DNA of 64,000 nt from assembly GCF_022201045.2 (NCBI RefSeq), contig NC_068560.1, positions 35,675,001 through 35,739,000 of the forward strand, read 5' to 3'. Under the pieces are notes generated by a model that made no database searches, was not told the origin of the DNA, and saw nothing but the letters and a program-made list of their open reading frames with translations. The position numbers were made by a program, and so were the translations under genes. Shown here one piece after another: positions 15,101 to 54,214 of this stretch. The first letter of the stretch is position 1, and every line of letters starts with the position of its first letter. The DNA is from Citrus sinensis. Lineage: Eukaryota > Streptophyta > Magnoliopsida > Sapindales > Rutaceae.

Positions 15101-17374
15101 CTAGGTTTTAATGGCCACTACGGGGCTTGAAACTGTGTGGTTGTACTGATCAATCCATTTGAGGTAACCGTAGCTCACTCTCGGAGATTCTCTGTCAATC
15201 TCTACACTCAAGGCAAAATCCAGCAGCTGATATTTCTGAGTGAACTTTAGAGTGCTAGGCTCTATCCTGATATTCATTCCAGCAGGAAACTCCAAAACTG
15301 CATGGTATATTGAATCTTCTGCTCCCACGTTTTTCACAACCCTGCTGAAGTTCTTTGCCGTTGTTTCATTGGTAAATACGGCTGCAAAAGACGGGTAATT
15401 CAGGTCAGTAGATTCTTGGCTGCAATTCCATTGATTTCTTCGAATGACAGCTTTCATCTGCTTTTCATCATAGCCTAGGCCGCACAGGAACTCGACATAA
15501 TCCTGAAAGTCTGCGTCATAGATGAGTCCAGGGTCCATTGCTTTGTTTGGGTCTATATGGCCTGCCCCAAAATCTAGTGGCGTGGCAGGAACGCCACCTA
15601 TTTCATTTTCAGCAATGTTAACGGGATAAGCCGTAGTCATTATAGCTGATCGGATGGCTGCTGGGCTCCACTCCCGATGGATAGCTTTTAGCAAAGCTGC
15701 AACTCCAGCAACATGGGGTGCTGCCATGGAGGTGCCTGAAAATAGTGCATAGTCTGTCACCAATTCATAGTTGCCGATTTCAATGAATGGAATGTTAGGC
15801 GCAACTGCTGCCAGTACGTCAACTCCTGGAGCCACAATATCTGGCTTTAGAATCCCTGGACTGATTGGGTCCGGTCCCCTTGAAGAGAATGAGGCCACAT
15901 GAGGTGCTGGTTTTGTACCAAGCTCTGTCAAGATGAACCTCATTGATTTCACTTTTGATTTGTTTTTCCCAGTCACATACTGTCTAATTGACGTCCCAGC
16001 AGAAGTTGGCAGAATCAGGCTGGGAATGTAATACTCATCTGAATCTATATCTGGCGTGTCAGTCAAGAAGATTGCTGCATAAGCGCCTGCCCTGTCAACC
16101 TCTTCCATTTGGGAATAGGTGTCAATTCTGTTGCTGTTGTCACAAAAAACAACCTTTCCAGTAACCTCGTCTGGGTTCAGTGATCCCAAGTGGCATATTG
16201 ACTTGTTCACGTCATTTTTGCCATAGTACAAGGGCGCATCGGTAATGTAAACGCTTTCTGGAAAATATGATATTCCTTTAAAGGTTAAACCATTATCTAG
16301 GGTAACTGTTGCATGGAAGCTCCTGTCAAGCGTGCCAGCTCCTACAGTCGTGATCCAAGGTGCTCCATTATGTATTGACCGTGGAAATCCATCATTGCCT
16401 GCTGCACAGACTACGACAATTCCATTTTCAATAGCTGAGAGAGAAGCAATGGCGATAACATCATTGAAATAAGGTGTCTGGTCAAAGCCGAGAGACAACG
16501 ACATGATATCGACTCCGTCAGCAATTGCTTGATCCATGCCAGCAAGTACATCACTTGCTGCACTCTCTTCTGTGTCTGTTGCCCATAGGACCTTGTACAT
16601 GGCAACATGTGCTCTTGGTGCTATGCCTCTTGCAGTGCCTTTTGCGTATCCAAAGTGACTTACTCCCTCTACGTGGTTACCGGCTGCTGTGGATGATGTG
16701 TGAGTGCCATGACCGAAGAAGTCTCTTGCTGAGTCAAAGTCATATTCCTTGGAGACATTTATACCTGCGGCTTGCAGCCCTTTGCTGAAAGATCGAGCAC
16801 CGATGAGCTTCCTGTTGCAGACAAAAGGACTAAATGCCGTGCCATTCTCACACCGGCCATTCCATCGTCGAGGCACTGGTGGCATTCCCTTGTCATGAAA
16901 ACTCTCACTCTCTGGCCAAATTCCTGTATCAATAATACCTACTATTACACCTTGACCATATCTTGCAGAAGGCCATAAGCCTGAGTTAGGTTTTAGTCCA
17001 AGAAAATTTGGGGAGTGGGTGGTGAATAGTTTGCCAAAGGACTCAGGGTATGTGGCAAGGTGAGCTGGAGATTTCTCAATTTCAGATAGTTGGGAAGGTG
17101 TAAGCCTGGCACTGAAACCTTGAATTACATGATTGTAGGAGTATAACAACATGTTGTTGCGATCAGCAGGGTATGACGCTGACTTTAGGATTGAAAGGTG
17201 CCATGACTCGTGGGTTAAGAAAGCCGATGGCTTGTGAGAATGGTCCATGTGGATGATGTACGTCTGGTGGTCTTCATTTCTTGACTCTGCATTGTCGCTT
17301 CCCAGTAACAACAACAGTAGCCAAGGCAATGCATGGTTCAGAATCAGATGGGGAAAAGTTATTCTTCTGGTCAT
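15101..17374 (-). CDS. Subtilisin-like serine protease, SBT1.9-type (copy A)
   Basis: Intronless, 757 aa from the ATG at 17374; the ORF is open slightly further upstream, but only to a TTG. A Leu-rich signal peptide comes first. An I9 propeptide follows (TYIIHMDHS to about residue 120), then the S8 domain. The catalytic residues are Asp149 (GIIDTGIWPES), His222 (GHGTHTSS), oxyanion Asn327 (AAGND) and Ser549 (SGTSMAAPHVAG). A PA domain is inserted between His and Ser, and a fibronectin-III-like C-terminus ends at SSPVVAIKT. Such enzymes are secreted to the apoplast and mature by cleaving their own propeptide. The sequence is nearest in style to Arabidopsis SBT1.9 and tomato SlSBT3. It sits alone on the minus strand, divergent from two plus-strand paralogues, so 3.4 kb of spacer is shared between the promoters of copies A and B. 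Confidence 0.95.
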   Translation of the reverse strand: MTRRITFPHLILNHALPWLLLLLLGSDNAESRNEDHQTYIIHMDHSHKPSAFLTHESWHLSILKSASYPADRNNMLLYSYNHVIQGFSARLTPSQLSEIEKSPAHLATYPESFGKLFTTHSPNFLGLKPNSGLWPSARYGQGVIVGIIDTGIWPESESFHDKGMPPVPRRWNGRCENGTAFSPFVCNRKLIGARSFSKGLQAAGINVSKEYDFDSARDFFGHGTHTSSTAAGNHVEGVSHFGYAKGTARGIAPRAHVAMYKVLWATDTEESAASDVLAGMDQAIADGVDIMSLSLGFDQTPYFNDVIAIASLSAIENGIVVVCAAGNDGFPRSIHNGAPWITTVGAGTLDRSFHATVTLDNGLTFKGISYFPESVYITDAPLYYGKNDVNKSICHLGSLNPDEVTGKVVFCDNSNRIDTYSQMEEVDRAGAYAAIFLTDTPDIDSDEYYIPSLILPTSAGTSIRQYVTGKNKSKVKSMRFILTELGTKPAPHVASFSSRGPDPISPGILKPDIVAPGVDVLAAVAPNIPFIEIGNYELVTDYALFSGTSMAAPHVAGVAALLKAIHREWSPAAIRSAIMTTAYPVNIAENEIGGVPATPLDFGAGHIDPNKAMDPGLIYDADFQDYVEFLCGLGYDEKQMKAVIRRNQWNCSQESTDLNYPSFAAVFTNETTAKNFSRVVKNVGAEDSIYHAVLEFPAGMNIRIEPSTLKFTQKYQLLDFALSVEIDRESPRVSYGYLKWIDQYNHTVSSPVVAIKT

Positions 17375-17448
17375 GGCTGATGTGCTGAGGAGAATGTTGG
17401 GGAAGATATTCAAGGTTGGAGATTGAGGATGATGTTAAAAGGTGGAGG

Positions 17449-17457
17449 ATATATAAA
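17449..17457 (-). promoter_or_regulatory. Probable TATA box of subtilase copy A
   Basis: Read on the minus strand the bases are TTTATATAT, 75 bp upstream of the ATG. This spacing fits a core promoter with a leader of about 40-50 nt. Confidence 0.55.
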
Positions 17458-20400
17458 TGCCGTATAAGGAAGCTCTCTGATGCAGGGAAGTCTCTCCTTT
17501 GTTATTTACACAACACTAACTTTTAGTCCTGTGTTATGTTCGACCTGTTTTTTAGTAAGTTTATGAATGGATGTTTTTGCTTGGCTTATTAATGACAAGG
17601 CTTTGTTTTTCCCCCATTTTCCTTTAACTTTTCCCTGGGTCCACTTGATCAACTGTCCAAGATGACATTACTCATAGATGCCTAGAGGGTGAACCATCCA
17701 ATATAACAGTTGGATACAGTTTCAAAATCGGCGCAGCTTTGCTTTTGTTGCCGATGCTTTTCAAGTTTTGACCTTCCCTACAGCAGTTAACTGCAGATAT
17801 AAATTAATCATCTCGTAAGTCTATCTCGCAATGGAATCTGCTTAATTTATCCGCATATTTAGTGACAAAAGAAATAGCTTGATATGAATATATTAGCACA
17901 ATTCAGTGTTGGACTCATCACTCGTCACCTTTTTCATTTGCTGTTATATGAAGTTAACTGTAAGCTATTCTCCTTTTGACACTATAGGGTTTACAGGAAG
18001 CAACCAAAATATAGAATGGTGACGTTACCAATGGCATGTCTGTGCCTGTACTTTTCCTTCCGTAGAACTTCTGGATTTTCTTTCTCCCTTAAAATATAAG
18101 CTAATTGAATGTGCTGTGGCCTGCAGAACGTACGAAATTAAACCTTGTTCGGATTTTCTCAAGGTTTTGTTCTAGGCCTAGCCGTCCCCAGCAGACATCG
18201 AAGTTGATGTACGGCATGTGCCCTGGGGACTTTTCTACAAACTTCCAGATATGCACATAATAATATAAACATGCTATATTGGATTTGACTCCCTCGATAA
18301 AATATGTTATAGTTATATTGTAAATTAATATTTTTATCTTTTTATTATTTATATTATATTAATTTTTATATTTTGTTATTATAAGTACATTTTGGAGATA
18401 AAGAAAAAAATAATTGGAGTTGGGGAATAATTAGTCACAGTATTAATGACTTAATATTGGAACAAATATTTGATTGCCAATTTTACGAAATACAAGAAAA
18501 GTCAGACCGTGAACATGAATTAAAAGAGAGATAGAATTTTTAATTTATTCACGTGGAGGAGAGCACTAAAGAATCAATTGATAAATTTATACGTGGCAAC
18601 ATCGTGATGGGCTATTTGGCTTCGGATCCTCTTGGCTTAGTAATTGTTCAAGCCGGTTTGCATTATTATATCAAAGGAAGTATTACGGGCATGATGAGAG
18701 CAGCGGAATCAGGGCGAAAACCAAGAGCAAGGAAAGTCGATTGAAGATGGAACTGATATTTTCATTTTTTTTTTCCCAACTAATTTGCTTTAATGTTGTC
18801 AATTAAATTTATGAATTTCCTTTATTTTCTCATGAACTAAATTTACTTTGTTAGAGATGTGATATAGTCTAATTAGGAAGATTTAATTTTATAAATTTAT
18901 GTAATTTTTAATTATTATTTTATGATTGAGTGTTCATTATTATGCTTAATGTTTTTAAATATCTTGTCAATATTTAAGAATACGTAACGGAATCAAGAGG
19001 AAATTGAAATAATTTTACTCTGTGTACTAGATGTCATGAATTGAACGTAAAACAGAGATGTACGAACACAACTCGTATAGTTTTCCTTAAGAATTGACAT
19101 AGAGTTTAATTAATCTTTACATATTCATATAGAGTATAGTTGATTAATATGTGAGGGCAATTTTTACATTACTCAGAAGAGTACTTGTCATTGTGAGTAA
19201 TACTCTTTAATTGCATATATGGAATAATTGAATTAGATTGGTTATGGTGAAGTTGAATTTCCTAATACCTAAATCTCCCAATAATTTTTGTTATTTCTTA
19301 CATCATTATTTAATTTTTAATTATCTTATTTTAATTTAATTTTTAATCTAAATTCTCTTCCTCAATTATTTGAATAAATTAGAATTAGAATAATTTTAAT
19401 AGATAATAAGATATATAATGTACGATGATACTCTACTTTACATTATGTTACTTATGTCAACTAATACACTTTTTATTTTTTGCAACAATAGCCTGCAGGA
19501 TTTTATAATTACTGATCACATGCTCATACCTTGCTGTTTCCTAACCTCGTAAATGTCAAGCAAGAAATCGTCAAACAAAGACAAGGTTAATAAGCCAGCT
19601 GCCACTTAATAGGTTGAATTATCAACGTATTTAATTTGACTTTCCTCCTTTCTTATCGACCAAACTTTTTATAATCCATCAAAGGAGACGAGGTTTCACC
19701 AAGATTCGAATGACGCTGATTTTACCAAGACCTTACAACAAAAATAACTACCTATTTTCTTTATTTGCCAACTCATTTGAACGACTTATTAAAAATGATC
19801 TGACGTACTAACTTTATAAAGAAGATTGTGAGTTTCTCTATTGAAATAAAAATATTTCTTTTACTCTTTTACCGTTTTTATAATATTCAATAACTCCTTT
19901 AGTATTAATAATTTTACAATATTAAATAAGTGATATAAATTAAAATAAAAAGATTTAAATACTAAAATAAGAAATTTAAGTTTTTGTGTAGATAAAAAAT
20001 TATTAATTAGATTTTTTTGTACTTTTTATTATTTTAAGTAATTTTTTTATAATAACTATTATTTTATATTCATAAGATAAAATATCAAGTAAATAATTTA
20101 TTTATCCCTCTTTTCTCATAAATGTTTTTTGTCAAGGTGTTTTGGTTATTATAAAAACAGTATATATTAATTTCAATAGGAGAAAATTGGCATCTTCCAA
20201 TTTTATTTTACAGTGCAACTAATTTGTTGGTTCTGTTTTTTATTATTGGAGCACGAACCGTTCCAAACTCTAGTGCAATATTTCATGTTAGTTGAATGAA
20301 AATCCAATTTTGCAGCCTATCTAAATTGTAATCATTAAAGTTAAAAGTTTTATGATGTGTTAAGAAACATTTTTAAAATTAAAAATTCACATCCTATGGG

Positions 20401-20750
20401 TTATTTTTATTTCTCTTGCCGGAGAGAGTCTGCTTATGTGCTAGTTAAATGCCGTTTGTGTCAATCTAGTTTCCTAGCTGTCGTCAATTCTCACGGCCTC
20501 CATTTGAAATGAACCTGTGTTTCTTATAGGTTCATTTCTTGCATTGCATCTGTTGGCTTCACATGGCAAGAAAAGTAAACGTCCATTATACGATGCGACA
20601 TCATTGGCTGTGACTCCTATTACTATGTTTACTAGCTAAGACATTGTACCAACTAATTAAATTTCCTGCCACTTGCATAACAGCAAGATTTAATTAACTA
20701 AACGCCAAGTCTTGTAAATTTTTTGATATTTTCTAAACTGATGTCCATTT
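17458..20750. other. Shared spacer between divergent subtilase genes
   Basis: Mostly AT-rich DNA. One small island at 18553-18744 looks more coding-like than its flanks and is listed separately. Several long A+T runs lie between 18850 and 20200. No transposon ends were recognised. Confidence 0.4.
18553..18744 (+). other. Unrecognised 63-codon coding-like island
   Basis: An open frame begins GTG-GAG-GAG-AGC, without an ATG at its start. It ends in TGA at 18742-18744; the first internal ATG is near 18607. Base composition is clearly richer in G and C than the AT-rich flanks on both sides. The peptide carries a hydrophobic stretch (PLGLVIVQAGLHYY) and a basic end (GRKPRARKVD). It could be the last exon of an unseen gene or a captured fragment. 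I do not recognise it and assign no function. Confidence 0.2.
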
Positions 20751-20751
20751 C

Positions 20752-20759
20752 TATATATA
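20752..20759 (+). promoter_or_regulatory. Probable TATA box of subtilase copy B
   Basis: The bases TATATATA lie about 65 bp upstream of the ATG at 20824, a normal distance for a plant core promoter with a short leader. Confidence 0.55.
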
Positions 20760-20823
20760 CGCACAAACCATAGAGACCCCAATAACACATGCCTCGAGCT
20801 AATTCCTTTTCGGTAAAGAAATA

Positions 20824-23121
20824 ATGGGTTCTGTTAATGGTGTTCCTCAATTATTCCTTTTCGTTCTTTCATGGCTTCTGTTGGCTTTCCATGCTAACTC
20901 AAGTTCAGATGAGAGATCAACATACATAGTTCACATGGACAAGTCCCATATGCCCAAAGCCTTCTTTAACCACCACCATTGGTACTCTTCAGTCGTTCAT
21001 TCCCTCAAGTCTAAAAAGCCAGCCAAATCAAATCATCATCGATTCTCACCCTCTCTTGTGTATTCTTATGACAATGCTGCTCATGGTTTCAGTGCAGTGT
21101 TATCTAAACGGGAACTTGAGACTCTTAAAAAGTCTCCAGGTTTCATCTCAGCTTATGCCGATAAGACTGTGACACTTGACACCACCCACACCCCTGAATT
21201 TCTCTCCCTCAATACTGCCAACGGGTTGTGGCCTGCTTCAAAATATGGCGAAGACGTGATTGTCGGTGTTATTGACACCGGGGTCTGGCCCGAGAGTGAT
21301 AGCTACAATGATGATGGTATGGGCTCACTTCCAACCAGATGGAAGGGAGAATGTCAAGCTGGACAAGAGTTCAATTCCTCCTTGTGTAACTCAAAGCTTA
21401 TTGGAGCTAGATATTTCAATAAGGGTATTATAGCAGCTAATCCTGGGATTAACATTAGCATGAATTCTGCTAGAGATACCATGGGGCACGGGACCCACAC
21501 ATCCTCGACAGTAGCTGGGAATTATGTGAATGATGCTTCATTCTTTGGCTATGCTAAAGGTACAGCAAAAGGTGTGGCACCACGGGCTAGAGTGGCTATG
21601 TACAAGGTCATCTTTGATGAAGGGCGCTATGCATCTGATGTCCTTGCTGGTATGGACCAGGCTATTGCTGATGGTGTTGATGTAATTTCAATATCAATGG
21701 GATTTGATGAGACGCCATTGTATGAAGATCCTATTGCAATAGCCTCATTTGCTGCCATGGAGAAGGGCGTGCTGGTCTCTTCTTCAGCAGGAAATCGAGG
21801 GCCAGCGTTAGGGAGCTTGCACAATGGAATCCCATGGGTGTTAACTGTTGCAGCTGGAACCATTGACCGTTCATTTGCGGGCATAACAACTCTTGGGAGT
21901 GGGGAAACCATCATTGGATGGACCATGTTCCCAGCCAATGCTCTCGTAGAACGCTTGCCATTGCTATATAACGAGAGTTACTCAGCATGTAATTCAACTA
22001 AATTATTATCTCAATTACCAACAGATGCCATCATCGTATGCAAAGAAGCTACAGGTTCGGTATCTAAGCAAATATCTGTTGTTAGTGCATCAAAAATGCA
22101 GGGAGCTATATTTGTTTCAGATTATGATCCTGAATTATTTGAACTTGGCGGTTTGAGTATACCTGGCGTGGTAATTAGCACCCATGATGCACCGGCTGTC
22201 ATCAACTATGCCAGAAATGGCGTGGAACCTGTGGCAAGCATCAAGTTCCAGCAAACTGTTCTTGGCACAGAGCACGCACCAGCCGTGGCTTTCTATACTT
22301 CTAGAGGTCCTTCACCGAGCTATCCAGGCATCTTAAAGCCAGATATAATGGCCCCTGGGTCACTAGTTTTTGCTGCTTGGATTCCAAATACTTCTACAGC
22401 CCAAATTGGTTCAAATTTACTCTTGACAAGTGATTACAATATGATTTCTGGGACATCAATGGCCTGCCCTCATGCTGCTGGTGTGGCTGCCCTCCTTAGA
22501 GGCGCACACCCTGAATGGAGTGCAGCTGCTATTAGGTCTGCAATGGTGACTACAGCAAATCCATTGGATAACACTAACAATCCAATCCGAGACAATGGTC
22601 TAATCAATTTCACGTCTGCTTCACCTCTAGCCATGGGAGCTGGTCAAGTTGATCCAAATCGGGCTCTTGACCCGGGTTTGATTTATGACGCCACCCCACA
22701 GGATTATGTGAACCTCCTCTGCTCTATGAACTTCACCCAAAATCAGATTCTGTCCATTACAAGATCAAACCGTTACAACTGCTCCACCCCCACTTCAGAT
22801 CTTAACTATCCGTCTTTTATTACTTTGCACGATAACACAAGTACAAAATTTGTTCAAACATTTCACAGGACTGTGACTAATGTGGGAGGAAGCGCAGCAA
22901 CATACAAAGCCAAGATCACAGCACCTCTAGGTACTGTAATTAGTGTCTCACCGGACACATTGGTCTTCGGAAAGCAGTATGAGCAGCAGAGCTACACTCT
23001 TACTATAAACTATAAGACAGATGGTGGAGAAATCATATCATTTGGTGAACTTGTTTGGGTTGAAGAAAATGGGAATCACACTGTGAGGAGCCCTATTACA
23101 GTGTCGCCTTTCATGAGTTAA
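20824..23121 (+). CDS. Subtilisin-like serine protease, SlSBT3/SBT1.9-type (copy B)
   Basis: Intronless, 765 aa from the ATG at 20824. A signal peptide covers about residues 1-25 and the I9 propeptide starts at TYIVHMDKSHMPKAF. Catalytic residues are Asp151 (GVIDTGVWPES), His222 (GHGTHTSS), oxyanion Asn324 (SAGNRGP) and Ser545 (SGTSMACPHAAG). A PA domain lies between His and Ser, and the C-terminal fibronectin-III-like domain ends in HTVRSPITVSPF. The protein resembles tomato SlSBT3, an extracellular subtilase studied structurally whose PA domain mediates dimer formation; the same behaviour here is inference. All family landmarks are present at normal length. Copy C follows on the same strand 4 kb downstream, which points to tandem duplication. 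Confidence 0.96.
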   Translation: MGSVNGVPQLFLFVLSWLLLAFHANSSSDERSTYIVHMDKSHMPKAFFNHHHWYSSVVHSLKSKKPAKSNHHRFSPSLVYSYDNAAHGFSAVLSKRELETLKKSPGFISAYADKTVTLDTTHTPEFLSLNTANGLWPASKYGEDVIVGVIDTGVWPESDSYNDDGMGSLPTRWKGECQAGQEFNSSLCNSKLIGARYFNKGIIAANPGINISMNSARDTMGHGTHTSSTVAGNYVNDASFFGYAKGTAKGVAPRARVAMYKVIFDEGRYASDVLAGMDQAIADGVDVISISMGFDETPLYEDPIAIASFAAMEKGVLVSSSAGNRGPALGSLHNGIPWVLTVAAGTIDRSFAGITTLGSGETIIGWTMFPANALVERLPLLYNESYSACNSTKLLSQLPTDAIIVCKEATGSVSKQISVVSASKMQGAIFVSDYDPELFELGGLSIPGVVISTHDAPAVINYARNGVEPVASIKFQQTVLGTEHAPAVAFYTSRGPSPSYPGILKPDIMAPGSLVFAAWIPNTSTAQIGSNLLLTSDYNMISGTSMACPHAAGVAALLRGAHPEWSAAAIRSAMVTTANPLDNTNNPIRDNGLINFTSASPLAMGAGQVDPNRALDPGLIYDATPQDYVNLLCSMNFTQNQILSITRSNRYNCSTPTSDLNYPSFITLHDNTSTKFVQTFHRTVTNVGGSAATYKAKITAPLGTVISVSPDTLVFGKQYEQQSYTLTINYKTDGGEIISFGELVWVEENGNHTVRSPITVSPFMS

Positions 23122-24125
23122 CTTAGTTTGTCTTTGTGCCTATAAAATAACTTATCATGTGATCTGATCAAAGTGCAGGAATAACCCACATGTATGTGAA
23201 TCCTGAATAAGTTGTATGGAAATCTTCAACATTATCATTAAAGGCTTGAATCATTTGGTGTTTTTGATTTTCTGCAAGTCCTTTTCTCTTTAAAGGACCA
23301 TCCATTCATGTTTTCTTCATGTCTTCAACATTATCATATTTTCTGCAAGCCTTGAGAATGATTTGTGATTTCATTCTCAGGATCAGCATTATAAACCTGT
23401 TCTAAAAGTATTTAATGATTGAAGCAAGCTATGAAATGCTAAAAAACTATCGCCAAAAGAATCCAGAATCCATTTCGTAAAAGAAAATTTTTCACAGCCT
23501 CAGCCTGGCTCAATTGGCCCAGCAAGGCAATGGTAGCACCAAATACCACGCTACCAGCTCCCATCCCATCATGCAATCTGGCAAAGACTTTGTACAACCA
23601 ATTGCGTGCCAGAAGGAGAAAAGAAAATGTATACTCTTTTTTTTCCCCCTTTTTTTTTTTTTGAAATTAGAAAACGACATGGTTTGAACTTTTATCGCAA
23701 AATCATTAATCACGATAGCTGGCATTTGGATTTTGAAAATGGCAATGTATTCAAGGTCCATTTTACCTTTTCCATCGCAGAGTATGTGACTGGTTTCAAT
23801 CAAAATAATTACGACTATAGTTGGTTTGCTCTGGACCGTTTTGAGTCTTAATCAATAGTTTACTCATGTACATTGACAGAAGCCGAAATTGAAGGTATTA
23901 AACAGTAATACAGATTTGCAGATTCCCTTGACAGTTTACCTCTCTAGATATTTCACACTAGTCTTCAGTGAAAACCTACGACAATTTGCAATTAAATCTA
24001 GAGCTAACTACAATGTGCACGTCTTCAACAAGAGTCGCCATTATGCATAATCAATTCGGTATGAAAACAATAGCTGGGTACAAGAAATTTTTAATCTGAA
24101 CATACAGAATGTGGGGGAAATATGT

Positions 24126-24242
24126 GGTGCAACTGTGGTATCGTGCCATAGTTGCATCCAGCCGTTGGATACTAGTGGACCCCACCAATCCAAGTGCATC
24201 TAACGGTTGGATGCAAGTGTGGCACAGTACCACAGTTGCACC
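24126..24242. mobile_element. Hairpin MITE, about 117 bp
   Basis: The left arm begins GGTGCAACTGTGGTATCGTG. The right arm read in reverse begins GGTGCAACTGTGGTACTGTG. The two arms pair for about 45-50 bp with few mismatches around a short centre, so nearly the whole element folds on itself. It has no coding capacity. I could not define a target-site duplication, so the superfamily is open; the shape is typical of short foldback MITEs. Confidence 0.75.
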
Positions 24243-24339
24243 GTAGCCTAATCTCAGAATGTGACACCCTAAATTCACGTGGCATGAACACGTGACAATA
24301 TAGAATATTAGTGATCCTCAAATCTTATAACTTACCCTT

Positions 24340-24561
24340 AATAAATATCCATTAAACTCCTTAAGAGAGGTCAAAGGTTCAAGCCCCGCTCCCGTATGGA
24401 GTCATCATTTTGACCAGCACTTTACCCTTTACAGGCCGACTTGGTGCGAGCGGGAATTAGTCTGAGTTGTGGTAAAGGCTTAAAAATACTTTTCACATTT
24501 GAGGCTCACTCAGGATCACCTCGTGGTTCAGACAAAAAAATAAATAAATATCCATTAAACT
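24340..24561 (+). mobile_element. 5'-truncated SINE with 19-bp target-site duplications
   Basis: A B-box-like GGTTCAAGCCC is at 24376-24386, only 17 bp into the element, and the expected A box upstream is missing, so the copy is 5' truncated. The 3' end is an A-rich tail (ACAAAAAAAT). A perfect 19-bp repeat, AATAAATATCCATTAAACT, flanks it at 24340-24358 and 24543-24561. The body (GGCCGACTTGGTGCGAGCGG) differs from the SINE family at 2035 and 54979, so this is a second SINE family. Confidence 0.8.
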
Positions 24562-25190
24562 AAAAATACTTGTTCCTCATTTTACAATTAAAAACACAAG
24601 GTGCTAGGAGCTAAATTCTTACTCCAAAGCTATTTATTGAATGACCAATTTGCTTTTATTTATTATCCGTCTAAATCGAAGCTCCAATTAATCTTCCAAC
24701 AGCCTAAATTTATGGAGCTCTATTGTTCTATTCCAATCTCCTAAAACTAATATTCTCAGCGTATTAAATGTTAATGATGAGGGGGAGCTATCAATTTGAT
24801 AAATAAATTCATTCATAAAATTACTATTATTTAACGACATTTAATGTTTTTTCAGAAACAAATACCACTTTTACAAATCACAGATATAAACCTTTATTTA
24901 CTCAACAGTAAATACTTTATCGATAAAAAAAACAACAACAATAATAACAATGGTAAGCATAATAAATAAAACTATAAAATATTTTTGTTCATGCTACATA
25001 ATATCACCTACACCCCTAATGATTCTATTAAAATAATAATAAGTTTCTTGGAAAGATATAGTCATAACAGTTTCCCAAAAATTTTAGAAATAACAGTAAC
25101 AACAATTATGTGTTGCAAGAATAACAAACTAGTTAGTCTGTAGTGATAATAGTAACAAACTAACAATAATATTAATTATGAACTATGAGC

Positions 25191-25874
25191 CCAAACATTA
25201 GAGGTTTTCATAATCCAATCTAATTTGCTCAATCCGTCTGATCCGTAAAAATTTGATCTGTGGATTGGTGGATTGGATTGAATTGAAATTTTAAAAATCC
25301 GCGATCAATGAATTAGATATGGATTTACTTATATAAATTTGTAAAAATTTGCGAATCTGTAAAAAAAAAAAAATTATTTAAGTTAGAATATGGCATTAGT
25401 ACTTACTAATAAATAAACAAGTTAGAATATATTTACATTAACACCATATTATATCTTATCCAACATAACATAAAATAAAAATAATTAAATAAACAAATAT
25501 AGCTTCCTAAACAGTTAATTTTCATGTACTGATCTAAACAAATGAGATTTTTTTTTTCTTTTTGATGTGTTATATTTTGAAACTTTTAATATATTTTCTA
25601 ACTTTATTTAAATAATTAATTTATTTAAATATTATTTAATCTTAAATTTGATCGGTAGGAAAATTATTTTTATATTATTTTTTTATTTAGTTAGTTCGTG
25701 AATATGACGGAATTAAAAATTTTTAGCTCGCAAACCAATCTGTAAAATGGTGGACTGAGTCGAATCCGTATCCGATCCGTAGACACATGAAATGAATTTC
25801 ACCAATCCGTGATTGGATTGGATTAAAACTTTATAATCCGCAAAATCTTATCCGCAAGCACTCCTACCAAACAT
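25191..25874. mobile_element. Non-autonomous hAT-type element, 668 bp
   Basis: The 8-bp repeat CCAAACAT flanks the element at 25191-25198 and 25867-25874. The ends read TAGAGGTTTTCA on the left and, in reverse, TAGGAGTGCTTG on the right, so both begin TAG and partly match. Eight-base duplications and TAG-type ends are hAT characters. The interior carries short repeats of the type AATCCG and GGATTGGATTG near both ends and no transposase. It is a MITE-like derivative. Confidence 0.75.
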
Positions 25875-27013
25875 TATTGTATATTCATACCATGTGGTAT
25901 CACTTGAATTTTTGCTCTATAAAGATCAAGAGAATTACGACCCAAACAATTACATATTCAATGTATCTTTTTCAACACACGAAAAATTGTAACTTTTGGA
26001 ACTTTCAAACATATTTAATACTTATGAATCATTGAAATGGTATTTACGTTGGAAATAAATGCTGAAAATTAAAATTAGAGTTATCTTCAATTATTCGTTA
26101 ATTGTGTAAAGTTAAGAAAATATTTTTGAGTGATAACAGATTTTCTTTAAAGATAATCAGTTACGCTATTTGAAATTAATTTTGGCTGAATATTAATTAT
26201 GATATCAAATGGTCGTATACTACAAATAAATACGTTAATATTATAAATGAATTTACTTAGTTCACGAAAAATCCTATTTTCTACGAACCCTTAAGATCAT
26301 CATCATGTCCTTCGTTGAAATAGAATTGTCTTTATCAATCTCTCCCGATTTCTCGCTCTCTCTTCTCTTGGTGCGTAAATGAGTAAATGTAAATAACTAT
26401 GCCTTGAACTTATTATACTAATTAACTTTACTCGAAAACGTGCAATTAACTACCATCCTAATTAAGTATAATTTAATAAGCTTTTAAGCAAAAGAAAACG
26501 GTAACTCTATCTATTAATTAAACGGAGTTAATTAAATTTTAAAATGAAAAATGATAAGGCAATAACAATTCTTTATCCCACCATCTTTAATTTATCATTA
26601 CTATTATTAACGTAAGTTGGGGTTTACGCTGCAAAGGAAGAACCTACTCTGGAGTGCAAAAAGTTGTGCAAATTGATTCTATAATAAGAAGATGAAAGTC
26701 ACGTTCACGTATCCTCCTTTGCAGATAAGTCAAGATTGTTAAAGAGTGACATAGATTAGCTATGACTTGCACAATTCTAGCCACATGGGGGCTGTAAGAC
26801 CACTAATCACTTGATTTTGTCATCGGAATTCTCATAGCCAATCTGCTCCACACTTTTGAGGATGGGAGAAATGCTCACTGGCGTTGGCCCTTCGTTTCCT
26901 GCTTGATATATATACATATATAATTGCCGCTGCAATTGATACGGAAGCTGAGATATATATATATACATATATATTAATGAGTGGAACTCTTAAGGTGCCC
27001 ATACTTCTCAATT
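25875..27013. other. Spacer and promoter of subtilase copy C
   Basis: AT-rich. Two similar TATATATACATATATA-type tracts lie about 40 bp apart at 26908-26922 and 26953-26972. No gene seen. Confidence 0.4.
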
Positions 27014-27022
27014 TGTATATAA
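27014..27022 (+). promoter_or_regulatory. Probable TATA box of subtilase copy C
   Basis: The bases read TGTATATAAG about 60 bp upstream of the ATG at 27083. The distance matches that seen in copy B. Confidence 0.55.
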
Positions 27023-27082
27023 GCCGTATCAGCAGTTGATAATTTTGTTCAGAAATCTCATAGCACTTGCAATATCTCCTAC

Positions 27083-29380
27083 ATGGCTTCTCGGTCTCAG
27101 CGTGTTTGCTTGAACATTATTTGGCTTTCCTTCATCTCTATCTTACACTGCAGCTCCACATTAGCAAATCGCGATAATTATATTGTCCACATGGACTTAT
27201 CGGCGATGCCGAAAGCATTCCGAGGCCAACATGGTTGGTACTCAGCCACGCTTCAATCTGTCTCTGGAAATGTTGAGGCAAACACCAATATCTTCAACAA
27301 TATTTCCTCTTCCAAATTACTCTATACCTATAGTCACGTTCTCAATGGCTTCAGTGCTAGTCTCACTCCTGCTGAGCTGGAGGCCTTGAAAAGCTCTCCA
27401 GGCTATATTTCTTCCATTAGGGATTTGCCTGTTAAACCACACACCACACATTCATCTCAGTTTCTTGGCCTTAATCCGAAATCAGGGGCATGGCCAGTTT
27501 CAAAATTTGGCAAAGATATTATAATTGGGGTGGTGGACACAGGGGTATGGCCAGAAAGCGAAAGCTATAACGACGGAGGCATGACTGAAATTCCATCAAG
27601 ATGGAAAGGAGAATGTGAGAGTGGCACCCAATTCAATTCCTCATTATGCAACAAGAAGCTTATTGGAGCTCGGTTTTTCAACAAAGGTCTACTTGCCAAA
27701 AATCCCACTATCACCATAGCCATGAATTCTCCGCGCGACGCAAATGGACATGGGACTCACACTTCATCCACAGCAGCTGGAAGTTATGTTGAACGTGCAT
27801 CATACTTTGGCTATGCCATAGGGACTGCTCTAGGCACGGCTCCACTGGCACGGGTGGCCATGTACAAGGCTCTCTGGAATGAAGGTTCTTTTACTTCTGA
27901 TATAATTGCTGCAATTGACCAAGCAATTATTGATGGAGTTGATGTTTTGTCCATGTCATTGGGCTTGGATGGGGTTGACTTATATGAAGATCCCGTTGCC
28001 ATAGCGACATTTGCAGCCATTGAAAAGAATATCTTCGTCTCTACGTCTGCGGGAAACCAAGGGCCATTCATTGGGACCCTACATAATGGCATACCTTGGG
28101 TTATGACAGTTGCTGCTGGTACAATGGATCGTGAATTGGGCGCTACTTTAACTCTTGGAAATGGAAACACTGTCACGGGCTTGTCTCTTTATCCGGGGAA
28201 TTCATCTTTAATCGACTTCCCAATTGTTTTCATGGATGAATGCCTCAATTTAGCTGAACTGAAGAAAGTTGGGGAAAAAATTGTTGTGTGCCAGGACAAG
28301 AACGATTCCCTTAGCAACCAAGTTGATAACATTCAAAATGCGAGCGTCTCTGGAGGTGTCTTCATATCCGATTTCGACGGACTGGAATTCTTTCTGCAAA
28401 GCTCATTTCCAGCGGTATTCATGAATTCGAAAACTGGTGACATTCTCAAAGACTATATGAAGATCGAGAATAACGCAACGGCAACCATTCAGTTCCAAAA
28501 AACAGAGCTGGGAACGAAACCAGCACCAAGTGTGGCCAGCTACAGCTCTAGAGGCCCATCAATCAGCTGCCCATTTGTCTTGAAGCCTGATGTTATGGCT
28601 CCTGGGGATTCAATCTTAGCTTCATGGCCTTCAAATCTTCCGGTGTCTCAGACCAACTCAAAGCTCATATTTAGTAACTTCAATCTACAGTCGGGGACAT
28701 CCATGGCATGCCCAATGGCAGCAGGAATAGCTGCACTTTTGAGAGGAGCACATCCCGAATGGAGCCCTGCAGCTATCCGATCGGCCATAATGACCACATC
28801 AGATTCCACTGATAACACAAACAGTGATATTAAAGACATTGGTGATGATAACAAACCTGCCACCCCCATAGCCATGGGAGCTGGACATATCAATCCCGAC
28901 AAGGCATTAGACCCCGGGCTCATCTATGATGCAACCACTGAAGATTATGTTAGTCTTCTTTGTGCATTAAACTTGACCATGAAGCGAATCCAAACCATCA
29001 CGAGGTCCTATTCAGTCAACTGTTCAACATCGTCTTTGGATCTTAACTACCCTTCTTTTATTGCCTTTTTTAATGCAAATGAATCAAAGTCCGTGCAAGA
29101 ATTTCAGAGAACAGTGACTAATGTTGGAGAAGGAGTGTCAACTTACACTGCTAGTGTGACGCCATTGAAAGGGTTTAACTTCAGTGTCGATCCAGATAAG
29201 TTGACTTTTAAAGGTAAATACGCAAAGCAAAGCTACAAGCTGCGCATAGAAGGTCCAAACCAAATGGATGAAGAAACAGTAGTAGCATTTTGTTATCTGA
29301 GTTGGATAGAGACTGGAGGTAAACATGTGGTGAAGAGTCCGATAGTGGTTACAAGCTTAGGCACGGAAGCACCTTCGTAG
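27083..29380 (+). CDS. Subtilisin-like serine protease, SlSBT3/SBT1.9-type (copy C)
   Basis: Intronless, 765 aa from the ATG at 27083. It has a signal peptide (about residues 1-28) and an I9 propeptide from NYIVHMDLSAMPKAF. Catalytic residues are Asp152 (GVVDTGVWPES), His223 (GHGTHTSS), oxyanion Asn325 (SAGNQGP) and Ser540 (SGTSMACPMAAG). A PA domain and a C-terminal fibronectin-III-like domain are present. It is closest to copy B in the window (shared GWY/HWYS propeptide block, LYEDP, LHNGIPWV). One oddity is Met in place of the usual His in the CPHAAG part of the Ser motif. That residue is not one of the catalytic three, so activity is still likely. It is expected to be secreted and self-processing. 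Confidence 0.95.
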   Translation: MASRSQRVCLNIIWLSFISILHCSSTLANRDNYIVHMDLSAMPKAFRGQHGWYSATLQSVSGNVEANTNIFNNISSSKLLYTYSHVLNGFSASLTPAELEALKSSPGYISSIRDLPVKPHTTHSSQFLGLNPKSGAWPVSKFGKDIIIGVVDTGVWPESESYNDGGMTEIPSRWKGECESGTQFNSSLCNKKLIGARFFNKGLLAKNPTITIAMNSPRDANGHGTHTSSTAAGSYVERASYFGYAIGTALGTAPLARVAMYKALWNEGSFTSDIIAAIDQAIIDGVDVLSMSLGLDGVDLYEDPVAIATFAAIEKNIFVSTSAGNQGPFIGTLHNGIPWVMTVAAGTMDRELGATLTLGNGNTVTGLSLYPGNSSLIDFPIVFMDECLNLAELKKVGEKIVVCQDKNDSLSNQVDNIQNASVSGGVFISDFDGLEFFLQSSFPAVFMNSKTGDILKDYMKIENNATATIQFQKTELGTKPAPSVASYSSRGPSISCPFVLKPDVMAPGDSILASWPSNLPVSQTNSKLIFSNFNLQSGTSMACPMAAGIAALLRGAHPEWSPAAIRSAIMTTSDSTDNTNSDIKDIGDDNKPATPIAMGAGHINPDKALDPGLIYDATTEDYVSLLCALNLTMKRIQTITRSYSVNCSTSSLDLNYPSFIAFFNANESKSVQEFQRTVTNVGEGVSTYTASVTPLKGFNFSVDPDKLTFKGKYAKQSYKLRIEGPNQMDEETVVAFCYLSWIETGGKHVVKSPIVVTSLGTEAPS

Positions 29381-36828: not shown

Positions 36829-36911
36829 CTATCTCCTGCAATGGGTGATTGTGGAGCAACCTCTGGTGTAGGGGTTAGCATGGCCTCTGGCTTTGTAACA
36901 GTTGTGGGTAT

Positions 36912-37807
36912 AATAAGAGTCCTGGGGATGGCAATTGTACCCGTAAACCCGTAAATTCGTCCAAACCCACCCGCCAAAACCCGCCCGTTATGGGTAATTT
37001 TACTCATTGCGGACGGGTTTAGTATTATAAATTAAAACCCACACATGGATGCAGGTGGGTTTGGTATTAACCTTATATCCAGTGGATACCCGCATGGATA
37101 TCTACCAAACCCGTAATATTTTTTCCAAATATTTTTAATTTAATTTTAATCTAAAAATATATAAAGAAAATAATGTCATTAATCAAATTACCAAATAGTC
37201 AAAGGCTCAAAGTTGTGTATGTGTGTATGTGACACATCTCTTATTCTAAAGTTATAACCTAAAGAAAACTAAAGGTATTTCCCTTCGAATTAATATTTGA
37301 AAATATTAATCTTAATTATTATTATAGGCATTGTGTTGGATGAGTGCTTATGGTGGTGAATGAAATGAATATATTCTCTTGGAGCTTGTTTTAAATGATA
37401 ATATGAAATGGAATTATTATTTTTATATACTAGTTTGTGTTTTTTAAATAGATTTGTGTAATTTATACTTAAATTTGAGAATTTGTATTGAATTGATGTG
37501 GAAATTTTAATTTTTCAATTACATTATTTAAATATAAAATTGAGTATGTTATATGGAATTTGAGGTTATTATTATAAATTTATATATTAAATATTTGTGA
37601 TTTTAAATACGGAAACCAGTAAAAAATCCACCGGATACCATTGCGGATTTGGTAATTGTTAAAACCCGCTGCGGGTGGGTTTTTTTTTTTAAATTAAAAC
37701 CCGCTGTGGGTTGTGGGTGAGTTTGATAATTTAAATTTTGTGCGAGTTTGTGTTTGATAATGGCAAACCCGCTGCGGGCGGTGCCCATTGCCATCCCTAA
37801 ATAAGAC
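36912..37807. mobile_element. hAT-type element B (880 bp) inside the RALF gene
   Basis: The element spans 36920-37799. Its ends read GGGGATGGCAAT on the left and, in reverse, TAGGGATGGCAAT on the right. The flanking 8-bp duplications are AATAAGAG (36912-36919) and AATAAGAC (37800-37807), seven of eight matching. The left end carries a few extra bases (TCC) before the GGGGATGG. The ends are rich in ACCCGC/GCGGGT units, and the middle is AT-rich without a transposase. It is non-autonomous, and a broken relative lies at 1057-1284. Confidence 0.8.
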
Positions 37808-37860
37808 CTCCCTGAACGAGCTGGGCAAGGAACCCTGTTGGCAGAAAGAGATCCATACGA

Positions 37861-39416
37861 TATGTAATTAGGGGTGGGCATGGGTTGGTTTGGGTTGAAT
37901 TTTAAGTCAACCCAAACCAAACCATAAAAATTTGGATCCAACCCAAACCAACCCAAATATTTTTAACCCAAACCAAACCAAATCATTTGGGTTTGGTTTG
38001 GGTTTGGTTTGAATTTTATTATCAAAATAATTTTTATTTTAATAAAATTTAATTATATCAAAATTATAATAATTATTAATTGTTATTAATTATTAAATTG
38101 ATATTAAAATATAAAAAATATAGTGGATAAAAATTATAAATTTTACAATAACTTAATCCTTAAATTAAAGAATACTAGAAAATCAAAATAAAGTTTAATC
38201 ACAAAAATTATTATTTTTCAATAAATAAGAACGTACACTTTAATAATAAACTTTCACAAACATGACATTAACAATCTAATAATAAATTTTGCCACTTGTT
38301 ATTTATTTAATTATGCAATATTTGTTTTTATTTATCGTTTTGATAGTTTTGCGTTATGTTGTCTACTTATATGTTTAATTTTAGGGAGATTGCCAGTTTC
38401 CCCCCTACAGTAATCAACATATATTATTTTTCCCCCTTCTGCTTTTATAATGGCCAAAAACTCCTCTAATAGTATAAGTTTACAATATTACCCTTATTTT
38501 CAACTACTCTTTTATTTATATTTATTCTAAATTAAATAAATCACATGAATAGAAACTAAATAAAAAATAAAGCATTAAAAATAAGAAATATTTGTTTTGA
38601 TATGAACAAAAAAATTAATAATAAAATTTTTTTATACTTATTTATTTTTTGAAAATTTTCTTATAATAAATATATAAGAAAGTTATTAGTCAAATGATAA
38701 AAAAATTATTATAAGAAAACTTGATTGACAAATAAAAATTTATTATAAGATAAATAATAAAATATTTTACCTATACTTTTTACATTTAATTTTAAAATAT
38801 TACAAAATATTTATTATAAGAAAATGTTCACAAAATAAATAATTACAAGAAAAAATTTTATTATTAATTTTTCTACTCATATCAAAATATATATTTCTTG
38901 TTTTAATACTTAATATGGGCATTACATTCAATTATTAACCAAAAATTAGCCGACATCTAGCATATCGGACCTAGTCCAAGCCGAATTATTATTGATCATT
39001 AGTAGAGTCTCCTGCTCTTTCTATGATGATCTTTCCATGTGGAAGGAATTATTTTTGTAAATAAGAAAAAAAATTGATGTTATTTACAACAATATTTATT
39101 TAATATAAATTTATTTTTACTGTTATTTTCATTTTCTAACTGTTAACAATTAATCATGCCGTAAAAAATTTAATGGTGGTCTTTCACTTATTTGTATTAA
39201 TTTATTTTATTTTCATTTATTTCATTTGAAAATTTAAGTGTTGGGATTTTATCCATAACCCATGAGTAAACCATACCCAAATCATAATGAAATGGTTTTC
39301 TACATAAAACCTACATCTAACCCATTTTAATGATTTATCCAACCCAAACCATTTAATTTGGTTTGAGTTTGGATAAACCCATGGGTTGTGGGTTTATGCC
39401 CACCCCTATATGTAAT
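37861..39416. mobile_element. hAT-type element A (1540 bp) inside the RALF gene
   Basis: The element spans 37869-39408. It has perfect 13-bp terminal inverted repeats, TAGGGGTGGGCAT, and a perfect 8-bp target-site duplication TATGTAAT at 37861-37868 and 39409-39416. These are textbook hAT characters. Both ends are full of AACCCAAACC/GGTTTGGGTT units. The interior is AT-rich, holds no transposase ORF, and has a segment from about 38384 (AGGGAGATTGCCAGTTTCC) that looks like a further nested insertion. Confidence 0.9.
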
Positions 39417-39639
39417 AATGCTTTCCTCTCCTGTACAGAGATCTCCTGGCAATCCCACCATCTTCATCCTGGCGTTCTTCATCATCATCATCATCATCAT
39501 CGTACGCAGACATTGTCCATGATGCCCACCCATGTCCCTCGGTACTCATCAGCGGGAAGCTTGCTTCATCATACCGAGCTTTCACAGTGATGATCATAGA
39601 GACGACAAGGAGCAGCTTTAGAACTAACGAGAATGCCAT

Positions 39640-52081: not shown

Positions 52082-54214
52082 ATGGCCAACCCTTCGAACG
52101 TAGCACAAGAGGGTGTTGTTGGTGTGGATGTTCCACCGGAACCAAGCCGTGGCCGAGAGGGAGAACGCGCCCAAGGCAAGACTCGCGGCAAGTCCAAGGC
52201 CCTATCCGTGGATGCGTTGGAGCCTCGTGTAGGCACTCTCGAAATAGCATTGTCCGCCGCTCAAGATAGCCTCGTGGGATTGGAGGAAAGAGTGGATGGT
52301 CTCGAGGGAGAATACGCCGAGTTCACGGTGGCCACAAAAGCTCTCATCCATGAGCAAGCGAACATTCTCCGAGGTGAGTTTCGTTCTTTCCATGATGAGT
52401 TGTTCAAACTTCGTAGTTTTGTTCAGGACGAACTACGTACTGTCCGTGCGGAAGTGGATGAAGTCCGCTCGGATTGGGCATGGCACAAGCGCACACTCTC
52501 CACAAGTCCAGCTTCCGCAAACTTGAGTGATGCGCGCCGCATTGACGTGCCAAAGCCTGACACCTACGATGGCACACGCAATGCCACCATCGTGGACAAT
52601 TTCCTCTTTGGGCTGGATCAATACTTCGATGCCATGGGTGTCCGAGATGAGGCATCGAAAGTGGGCACTGCACCCACCTATCTTCGAGGCGCTGCACAAC
52701 TATGGTGGCGTCGCAAGCATGGCGAGATGGGCAAGGGCATTTGCACCATCGACACTTGGGCTGACTTCAAGCAAGAACTCCGAAAGCAGTTCGCCCCAAG
52801 CAATGCGGAGAAGGAAGCGCGAGCGCGCTTACGTCGCCTCAAGCAATCGGGTAGCATTCGGGACTACATCAACGAGTTTACTACCCTTATGTTGGAGATA
52901 AGCGACATGTCCGACAAAGATTCACTCTTCTACTTTCAAGATGGCCTCAAGGATTGGGCCAAGACCGAGCTTGATAGGCGTGGTGTTCAAACACTTGACG
53001 ACGCCATCGCCATTGCGGAGTCGCTCACCGAATACTCCGCCCAGCTCAAGGACAAGAGGTCTAGCTATGACCAAGGTGGGGGAGAGAACCATGAGGACAA
53101 CAACCGCAATTGCAAGGAATGGAGCAAGAAAAAGCCTCCAAGCGGCAAGGACGGGCAAAGTAAGTCCGAGAAGCCACCCAAGCCTCGAAGCCCATGCTTC
53201 ATTTGCAATGGCCCTCATTGGGTACGCGACTGCCCGGAGAAAAAGTCGTTGAATGCCCTCGTAACACAACTCAAGGGCCAATGCACACCAACTACGGAAG
53301 AACCCCAACACAACTTGGGTTCGCTCCAACGCCTTAGCACACTCGTGAGCCAACCGCCAGAACCCACAAGGAAAGGGCTCATGTTCGTAAGTGTGCTCAT
53401 CAATGGCCGAACCGTTCGTGCGCTCCTTGACACCGGAGCAACGCACAACTTCATCTCCGAAGAAGAGGCTAAGTGTCTAGGCCTCAAGGTAACGCAGCAC
53501 GGAGGCACCATCAAGGCTGTAAACTCACCCGCCAAGCCATTTGCGGGAACCACACGAGGCGTACACGTTACGCTTGGGACATGGAATGGGAACCTCGACT
53601 TCTCGATTGTGCCGATGGATGACTTCGCAATGATCCTTGGCATGGAATTCTTCGACAAGGTACATGCCTTCCCACTTCCAGCAACAAACTCCCTTAGCAT
53701 CTTCGATGGGAATAAGGCATGCGTGGTACCGGTCGAGCGCGCACAACCCACAAAAAAGGCGCTCTCAGTCATGCAGTGCAGACGAGGATTCAAGAAGAAT
53801 CCAGACCACTTGGTCTCCATCCGGCAACACCACAAGGGAGAGGATTCCGAAAGCCCTCCAAGCCAAGTCCCACAACAAGTACGAGCCGTCCATGACAAAG
53901 GCAAGGACGCTATGCCTCCGAAGCTCCCACCGAGACGAGTGGCTGAGCAACGCACAAAGCCATCCGAGCATAAGGGGTTGCGGAAACACAAGAGGGGACG
54001 CCGCAACACCAACCGAAAGAAGGAAACAACCACATGCGGAGCAAGTGGCGGAACCTCCCCAAGAGTGAAGCACACGAAGACTAACGACAAATCACGGAAC
54101 AAGTCCCCCAAGGAGCAAGGACGAGATCGCGACGAGGACGCCGCGAGCTTAGGTGGGGGAGGATGTTACGGTCCGCCCAATTCGCTAGCCCAATTGCCCA
54201 CAATTTCGGGCTAG
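52082..54214 (+). CDS. Gag-protease polyprotein of the LTR element
   Basis: 710 aa from the ATG at 52082; the frame is open upstream only to a TTG. A coiled-coil region (about residues 50-130) is followed by a retrotransposon gag core (about 150-315; PKPDTYDGTRN, LWWRRKHG, QFAPSNAEKEARARLRRL). A zinc knuckle CFICNGPHWVRDC (about 372-384) has the CX2CX4HX4C form. The retropepsin motif ALLDTGATHNFIS has its active-site Asp near residue 450, and ILGMEFF lies further on. The last 150 residues are basic and low in complexity. The frame runs through the polypurine tract and stops (TAG, 54212-54214) 48 bases inside the 3' LTR. Base use is much richer in G and C than the surroundings. The ORF is intact, which fits a recent insertion. 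Confidence 0.9.
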   Translation: MANPSNVAQEGVVGVDVPPEPSRGREGERAQGKTRGKSKALSVDALEPRVGTLEIALSAAQDSLVGLEERVDGLEGEYAEFTVATKALIHEQANILRGEFRSFHDELFKLRSFVQDELRTVRAEVDEVRSDWAWHKRTLSTSPASANLSDARRIDVPKPDTYDGTRNATIVDNFLFGLDQYFDAMGVRDEASKVGTAPTYLRGAAQLWWRRKHGEMGKGICTIDTWADFKQELRKQFAPSNAEKEARARLRRLKQSGSIRDYINEFTTLMLEISDMSDKDSLFYFQDGLKDWAKTELDRRGVQTLDDAIAIAESLTEYSAQLKDKRSSYDQGGGENHEDNNRNCKEWSKKKPPSGKDGQSKSEKPPKPRSPCFICNGPHWVRDCPEKKSLNALVTQLKGQCTPTTEEPQHNLGSLQRLSTLVSQPPEPTRKGLMFVSVLINGRTVRALLDTGATHNFISEEEAKCLGLKVTQHGGTIKAVNSPAKPFAGTTRGVHVTLGTWNGNLDFSIVPMDDFAMILGMEFFDKVHAFPLPATNSLSIFDGNKACVVPVERAQPTKKALSVMQCRRGFKKNPDHLVSIRQHHKGEDSESPPSQVPQQVRAVHDKGKDAMPPKLPPRRVAEQRTKPSEHKGLRKHKRGRRNTNRKKETTTCGASGGTSPRVKHTKTNDKSRNKSPKEQGRDRDEDAASLGGGGCYGPPNSLAQLPTISG

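Follow-up and report, generated by a model that had tools for sequence, protein, structure and literature searches.

Two hAT-like insertions split a RALF34-like gene in Citrus and probably left a null allele or lineage-specific pseudogene

A RALF precursor gene split by two insertions was found by sequence inspection on the minus strand (39639 to 36829) of the 64,000-nt stretch of Citrus sinensis DNA analysed here (the window). The favoured reading, to which we assign a probability of about 0.85, is that this is a null allele or a lineage-specific pseudogene of a RALF34-like gene, that an uninterrupted version exists elsewhere in Citrus, and that the elements are neither spliced out nor mobile. 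Two non-autonomous hAT-like elements, B and A in gene order, would have inserted 69 bp apart in the RALF coding sequence, each duplicating its target. Transcription into element B would yield a 77-residue product and presumably no active peptide. The pieces would have stayed readable owing to too few mutations since the inactivation, and not to splicing or element movement. The pattern looks like the ordinary loss of one gene copy, and two non-autonomous transposon insertions in one peptide-gene paralogue are ordinary plant genome biology.

The RALF pieces themselves occupy 39639-39417 (223 nt), 37868-37800 (69 nt) and 36911-36829 (83 nt) of the minus strand, and the features of the locus are presented in Table 1. 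Removal of both elements and of one copy of each duplication gave a joined empty site of 375 nt, corresponding to 124 codons plus a stop, and no stop or frameshift was found in this joined reading. As in a RALF precursor, it carries RRSL, YISY and four mature cysteines (at VPC, HNC, RGC and HCRR), together with the SYYTHNC spacing. An earlier note on this DNA had given coordinates and lengths (1540 and 880 bp, 69 bp apart in this short coding sequence) that proved correct, and had pointed out that 375 is an exact multiple of three; this is true but was given too much weight, as any insertion in an intact gene leaves the same. The open reading frame (ORF) of piece 1 encodes 77 aa, in which RRSL is followed by YRRGKHYYI and then by a stop supplied by element B. 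A check of the stop-free frames at the locus found no single one holding the mature RALF peptide, as the earlier note had stated.

Table 1. Positions of the RALF pieces, the two elements and their target-site duplications in the window.
Feature	Position	Strand	Description
RALF piece 1	39406..39639	-	Start codon, hydrophobic N-terminus (signal peptide by eye), acidic pro-region, RRSL
Target-site duplication of B, copy 1	39409..39416		TATGTAAT
Element B	37869..39408		1540 bp, hAT-like, non-autonomous
Target-site duplication of B, copy 2	37861..37868		TATGTAAT
RALF piece 2	37800..37868	-	69 nt, YISYGSLSANRVPCPARSGRSY region, first mature cysteine; Pfam RALF 4.7e-7 alone
Target-site duplication of A, copy 1	37800..37807		AATAAGAC
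Element A	36920..37799		880 bp (877 bp by terminal repeats, 36923-37799), hAT-like, non-autonomous
Target-site duplication of A, copy 2	36912..36919		AATAAGAG, then 3 unexplained bases TCC
RALF piece 3	36829..36919	-	YTHNCYKARGHANPYTRGCSTITHCRR and stop, outer duplication copy included; Pfam RALF 5.1e-9 alone

The joined reading matched the Pfam RALF family with an E-value of 1.8e-20 and 74.1 bits, against a curated cut-off of 22. Pieces 2 and 3 alone were also recognised, with 31.2 and 37.5 bits, respectively, each query including one or a few residues from the element border; piece 1 alone matched no Pfam family up to E = 1. Solved RALF4 chains matched by sequence as well, with a best E-value of 5.6e-10. 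A search of 5.8 billion proteins returned 364 candidates, including 340 relatives, of which the best 120 were listed in partly redundant rows, many of them annotated 'RALF-like 34'. The best match among the relatives listed was P0001, a 124-aa protein of Citrus x changshan-huyou with full coverage and 98% identity. It differs from the joined reading at 3 of the 124 positions (43, 53 and 81), and the match crosses both insertion junctions, so that the refuting condition named in the earlier note (no in-order match to a single RALF gene, or pieces of mixed paralogous origin) did not hold. The next named relative by E-value among the matches listed, from Melia, was 62% identical. P0001 is a protein record (huyou gene WN943_008797), known here as a protein rather than as DNA, and it suggests that an uninterrupted version of the gene persists elsewhere in Citrus.

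Because of this full-length match to a single 124-aa Citrus protein, the three pieces are parts of one gene, in order, as the earlier note had supposed; the same match led to rejection of an origin of the pieces from different paralogues. Together with the duplications and terminal repeats, it makes a chance origin of the arrangement implausible. The absence of any other damage, also claimed earlier, holds for stops and frameshifts but not for position 81, at which the joined reading has Ser. Among the listed relatives, 119 carry the motif and none of these has Ser at this position (118 have Ala and 1 has Cys), a count that leaves out one listed row, P0003, which ends before the motif. Ser81 may be a hint of relaxed constraint, and one substitution proves nothing.

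Element B has the features of a hAT insertion, with a duplication (TATGTAAT) that agrees at 8/8 positions and terminal repeats (TAGGGGTGGGCAT) that agree at 13/13. The duplication of element A (AATAAGAG / AATAAGAC) agrees at 7/8 positions, and its best terminal repeats (TGGGGATGGCAAT / TAGGGATGGCAAT), which start 3 bp inside the left end, agree at 12/13 in a count made by eye. The exact 8-bp duplications implied for both elements were thus confirmed for B and not for A. Judged by their longest stop-free stretches, of 74 codons (A) and 62 codons (B), neither element appears to hold a hAT transposase gene. The end sequences are ones that we take to be of hAT character, and the assignment of A and B rests on duplication length and ends. 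The central claim of the earlier note, a RALF gene split by two hAT-like insertions with duplications, was borne out by the Pfam RALF match, by both junctions and by the terminal repeats.

Elements A and B share 8-bp duplications, short terminal repeats and the absence of a transposase with non-autonomous hAT elements and long hAT-like MITEs, and A also shares with the MITEs the existence of related copies. They differ from both in the imperfect duplication and 3 stray bases of A, and in the internal palindrome of B. A truncated second copy of the element A family lies at 654-1290 on the minus strand, with 442/653 aligned positions identical (68%). A protein search with the middle ORF returned 6 proteins, all matching the element-A part and none with the RALF part. 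These matches mark A as a member of a repeated family. Dating by element copies was useless, the sole long second A match in the window being 68% identical and truncated. Other matches to element B within the window were short or internal ones only. The palindrome of element B, at 38578-38904, is imperfect (98-nt arms, 72% complementary) and is perhaps a nested hairpin element. A nested element within B was considered and rejected, as there were two weak matches without a clean terminal repeat and duplication.

There are signs of insertion B outside the window as well. The listed relative P0003, which derives from 4 member sequences on 8 short contigs (longest 1056 bases), is 77 aa long and ends ...KHYYI exactly where element B supplies the stop, with 1 difference from the window. 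Because P0003 ends exactly at the B junction and carries one difference, insertion B is probably shared, that is, present in more than one sequence variant. An assembly that broke off at the edge of the element would give P0003 the same end, and would likewise require an element at that place; the plant that supplied the window may also be the source of P0003. A protein search with the tail ORF, on the side of insertion A, found no candidate, so insertion A is known from this window only. Searches of plasmids (near mode), of viral contigs and of genome contigs from bacteria and archaea found no copies, which is unsurprising for a gene of plants. The insertion was unreported in the literature covered on RALF, Citrus RALF families, RALF transposon insertions or pseudogenes, and citrus hAT MITE alleles, a partial coverage that included few subscription journals.

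The 375 nt allow 1,125 possible single changes, 71 of which would be disabling (54 new stops, 9 start-codon changes and 8 stop losses). The calculated probability of escaping such damage was 0.72 after five random substitutions and 0.52 after ten; with indels added at an assumed value of 0.15 per substitution, it was 0.34 and 0.12, respectively. As P0001 differs so little from the joined reading, few disabling changes are predicted. The readable pieces therefore require neither selection, very recent insertion nor continued movement, though they do speak against a very old insertion. The proposal in the earlier note that both insertions are recent is not needed, given these few differences and the indication from P0003 that insertion B is not private to the window.

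Read from its native start codon, the protein ends nine residues past RRSL, short of the YISY and cysteine region, so that a null is the likely result. A working RALF peptide would still be made if the elements acted as introns and were removed from the transcript. Some maize Ds insertions have been reported to be spliced as introns, and the readable state of the pieces is consistent with this. A scan for two GT-AG introns (over limited junction ranges and with no splice-site scoring) yielded 30,723 combinations, of which 189 ended in the native C-terminus; YISY was kept in 0/189, so that 0/30,723 canonical combinations keep both. Under looser rules (GT-AG, GC-AG and AT-AC), 1,995 products reached the native C-terminus with VPC, including 1,520 that kept YISY and 592 that kept YISY and SYYTHNC, which would favour splicing. 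However, the products inspected all used AT-AC and were 194-204 residues long instead of 124, with some 70-80 element-derived residues added between the first and second mature cysteines. The rule was considered too permissive for products with AT-AC pairs and 70-80 extra residues to be used as evidence of function, and those with YISY are taken as chance matches, which a loose rule leads one to expect. Splicing at rare sites is formally possible, and a spliced transcript encoding a working peptide is very improbable. The same degree of doubt applies to elements that are currently mobile and whose excision can restore the gene, as the earlier note had suggested. Element B, with its perfect duplications and 13/13 repeats, may be mobilisable by a transposase from elsewhere. 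However, neither element has a stop-free stretch long enough to encode a transposase, the ends of A are imperfect, and, to judge from P0003, B has probably remained where it is in more than one sequence. Furthermore, hAT excision usually leaves footprints. The suggestion of continued movement found no support.

An origin of the pieces in different paralogues, or in a misassembly, is extremely improbable. RALF34-like genes do form two groups, which could in principle have supplied different pieces, but the in-order match to one protein, the duplications at both borders and the presence of the same B junction in other data (P0003) all argue against such a mixture. A heterozygous locus, with an intact gene on the other chromosome and the broken allele carried along, has a chance slightly below even; it refines the null-allele reading and does not exclude it. 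In its favour, the protein is recorded at full length from a hybrid citrus, huyou, for which a natural hybrid origin and a heterozygosity of 3.02% have been reported (PMC11161639). P0003 is compatible with a shared allele and silent on zygosity. The earlier idea that the gene is intact on another chromosome therefore survives in a wider sense only, that of the full-length P0001 in another citrus. A transposon-null allele of the second RALF34-like gene, common to citrus lineages and retained because they tolerate or profit from losing this cell-wall signalling peptide, e.g. in root branching, is unlikely; if this were true, Citrus would be a natural knock-out panel for the RALF34-like paralogue.

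The relationship to RALF34 was examined in a midpoint-rooted tree of 41 rows, comprising the window reading and 40 rows hand-picked from the 120 listed of the 340 relatives, for which the bootstrap had not settled. The window gene and P0001 fell in an 18-row group with Melia, Pistacia, Xanthoceras, Acer, Theobroma and others, some members of which are also annotated 'RALF-like 34'. A 23-row group holding two Arabidopsis rows and a second Melia gene was separated from it at 97/98. The two Arabidopsis rows are presumably RALF34, from its mature sequence, as the row names do not say so. The window gene thus did not group with Arabidopsis RALF34 (97/98 split, with an unsettled bootstrap and a midpoint root); this split argues against orthology to AtRALF34, which had been assumed at first, and makes a RALF34-like paralogue the most likely identity of the broken gene. 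In the 41-row tree, Melia, Morella, Quillaja, Reevesia, Corchorus and Diplodiscus each had members of both RALF34-like groups.

Clade II(B) RALFs have been counted as 3 in C. clementina and 2 in C. sinensis (PMC5258720), which would fit Citrus having several genes of this kind, and the motifs described there for the clade suggest that the window gene may belong to it. In cucumber, a single RALF34 orthologue has been described (PMC10179419). Arabidopsis RALF34 is the reported ligand of THESEUS1; in ralf34 mutants and overexpressors alike, pericycle divisions are aberrant and stage-1 lateral root primordia are more numerous (PMC7618880). The window reading shares with this peptide the RRxL site, YISY, the four cysteines, the SYYTHNC spacing and the Pfam RALF match, but it differs in being interrupted and in belonging to the other tree group (97/98). 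Because the tree places the window gene among paralogues, an AtRALF34-like role for it would have to be inferred.

A comparable silencing of a citrus gene has been described in Fortunella hindsii, in which insertion of a MITE, a 786-bp non-autonomous element, at S-RNase leads to self-compatibility (PMC11022811). That insertion lies in the promoter and was tested by deletion, whereas the RALF gene carries two insertions in the coding sequence that are known from sequence. If the null RALF allele segregates in Citrus, it would be a ready-made natural knock-out of a RALF34-like peptide. Automatic annotation could miss or mis-model such a gene, and in comparisons of pan-genomes it could be counted as missing.

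Elsewhere in the window, the region 15101-29380 holds three long subtilase ORFs, of 757, 765 and 765 aa, two of them on the plus strand and the other on the minus strand. A 710-aa ORF encoding the gag and aspartyl protease of a Ty3-type retrotransposon was located at 52082-54214 on the plus strand, at a local G+C peak of 54%.
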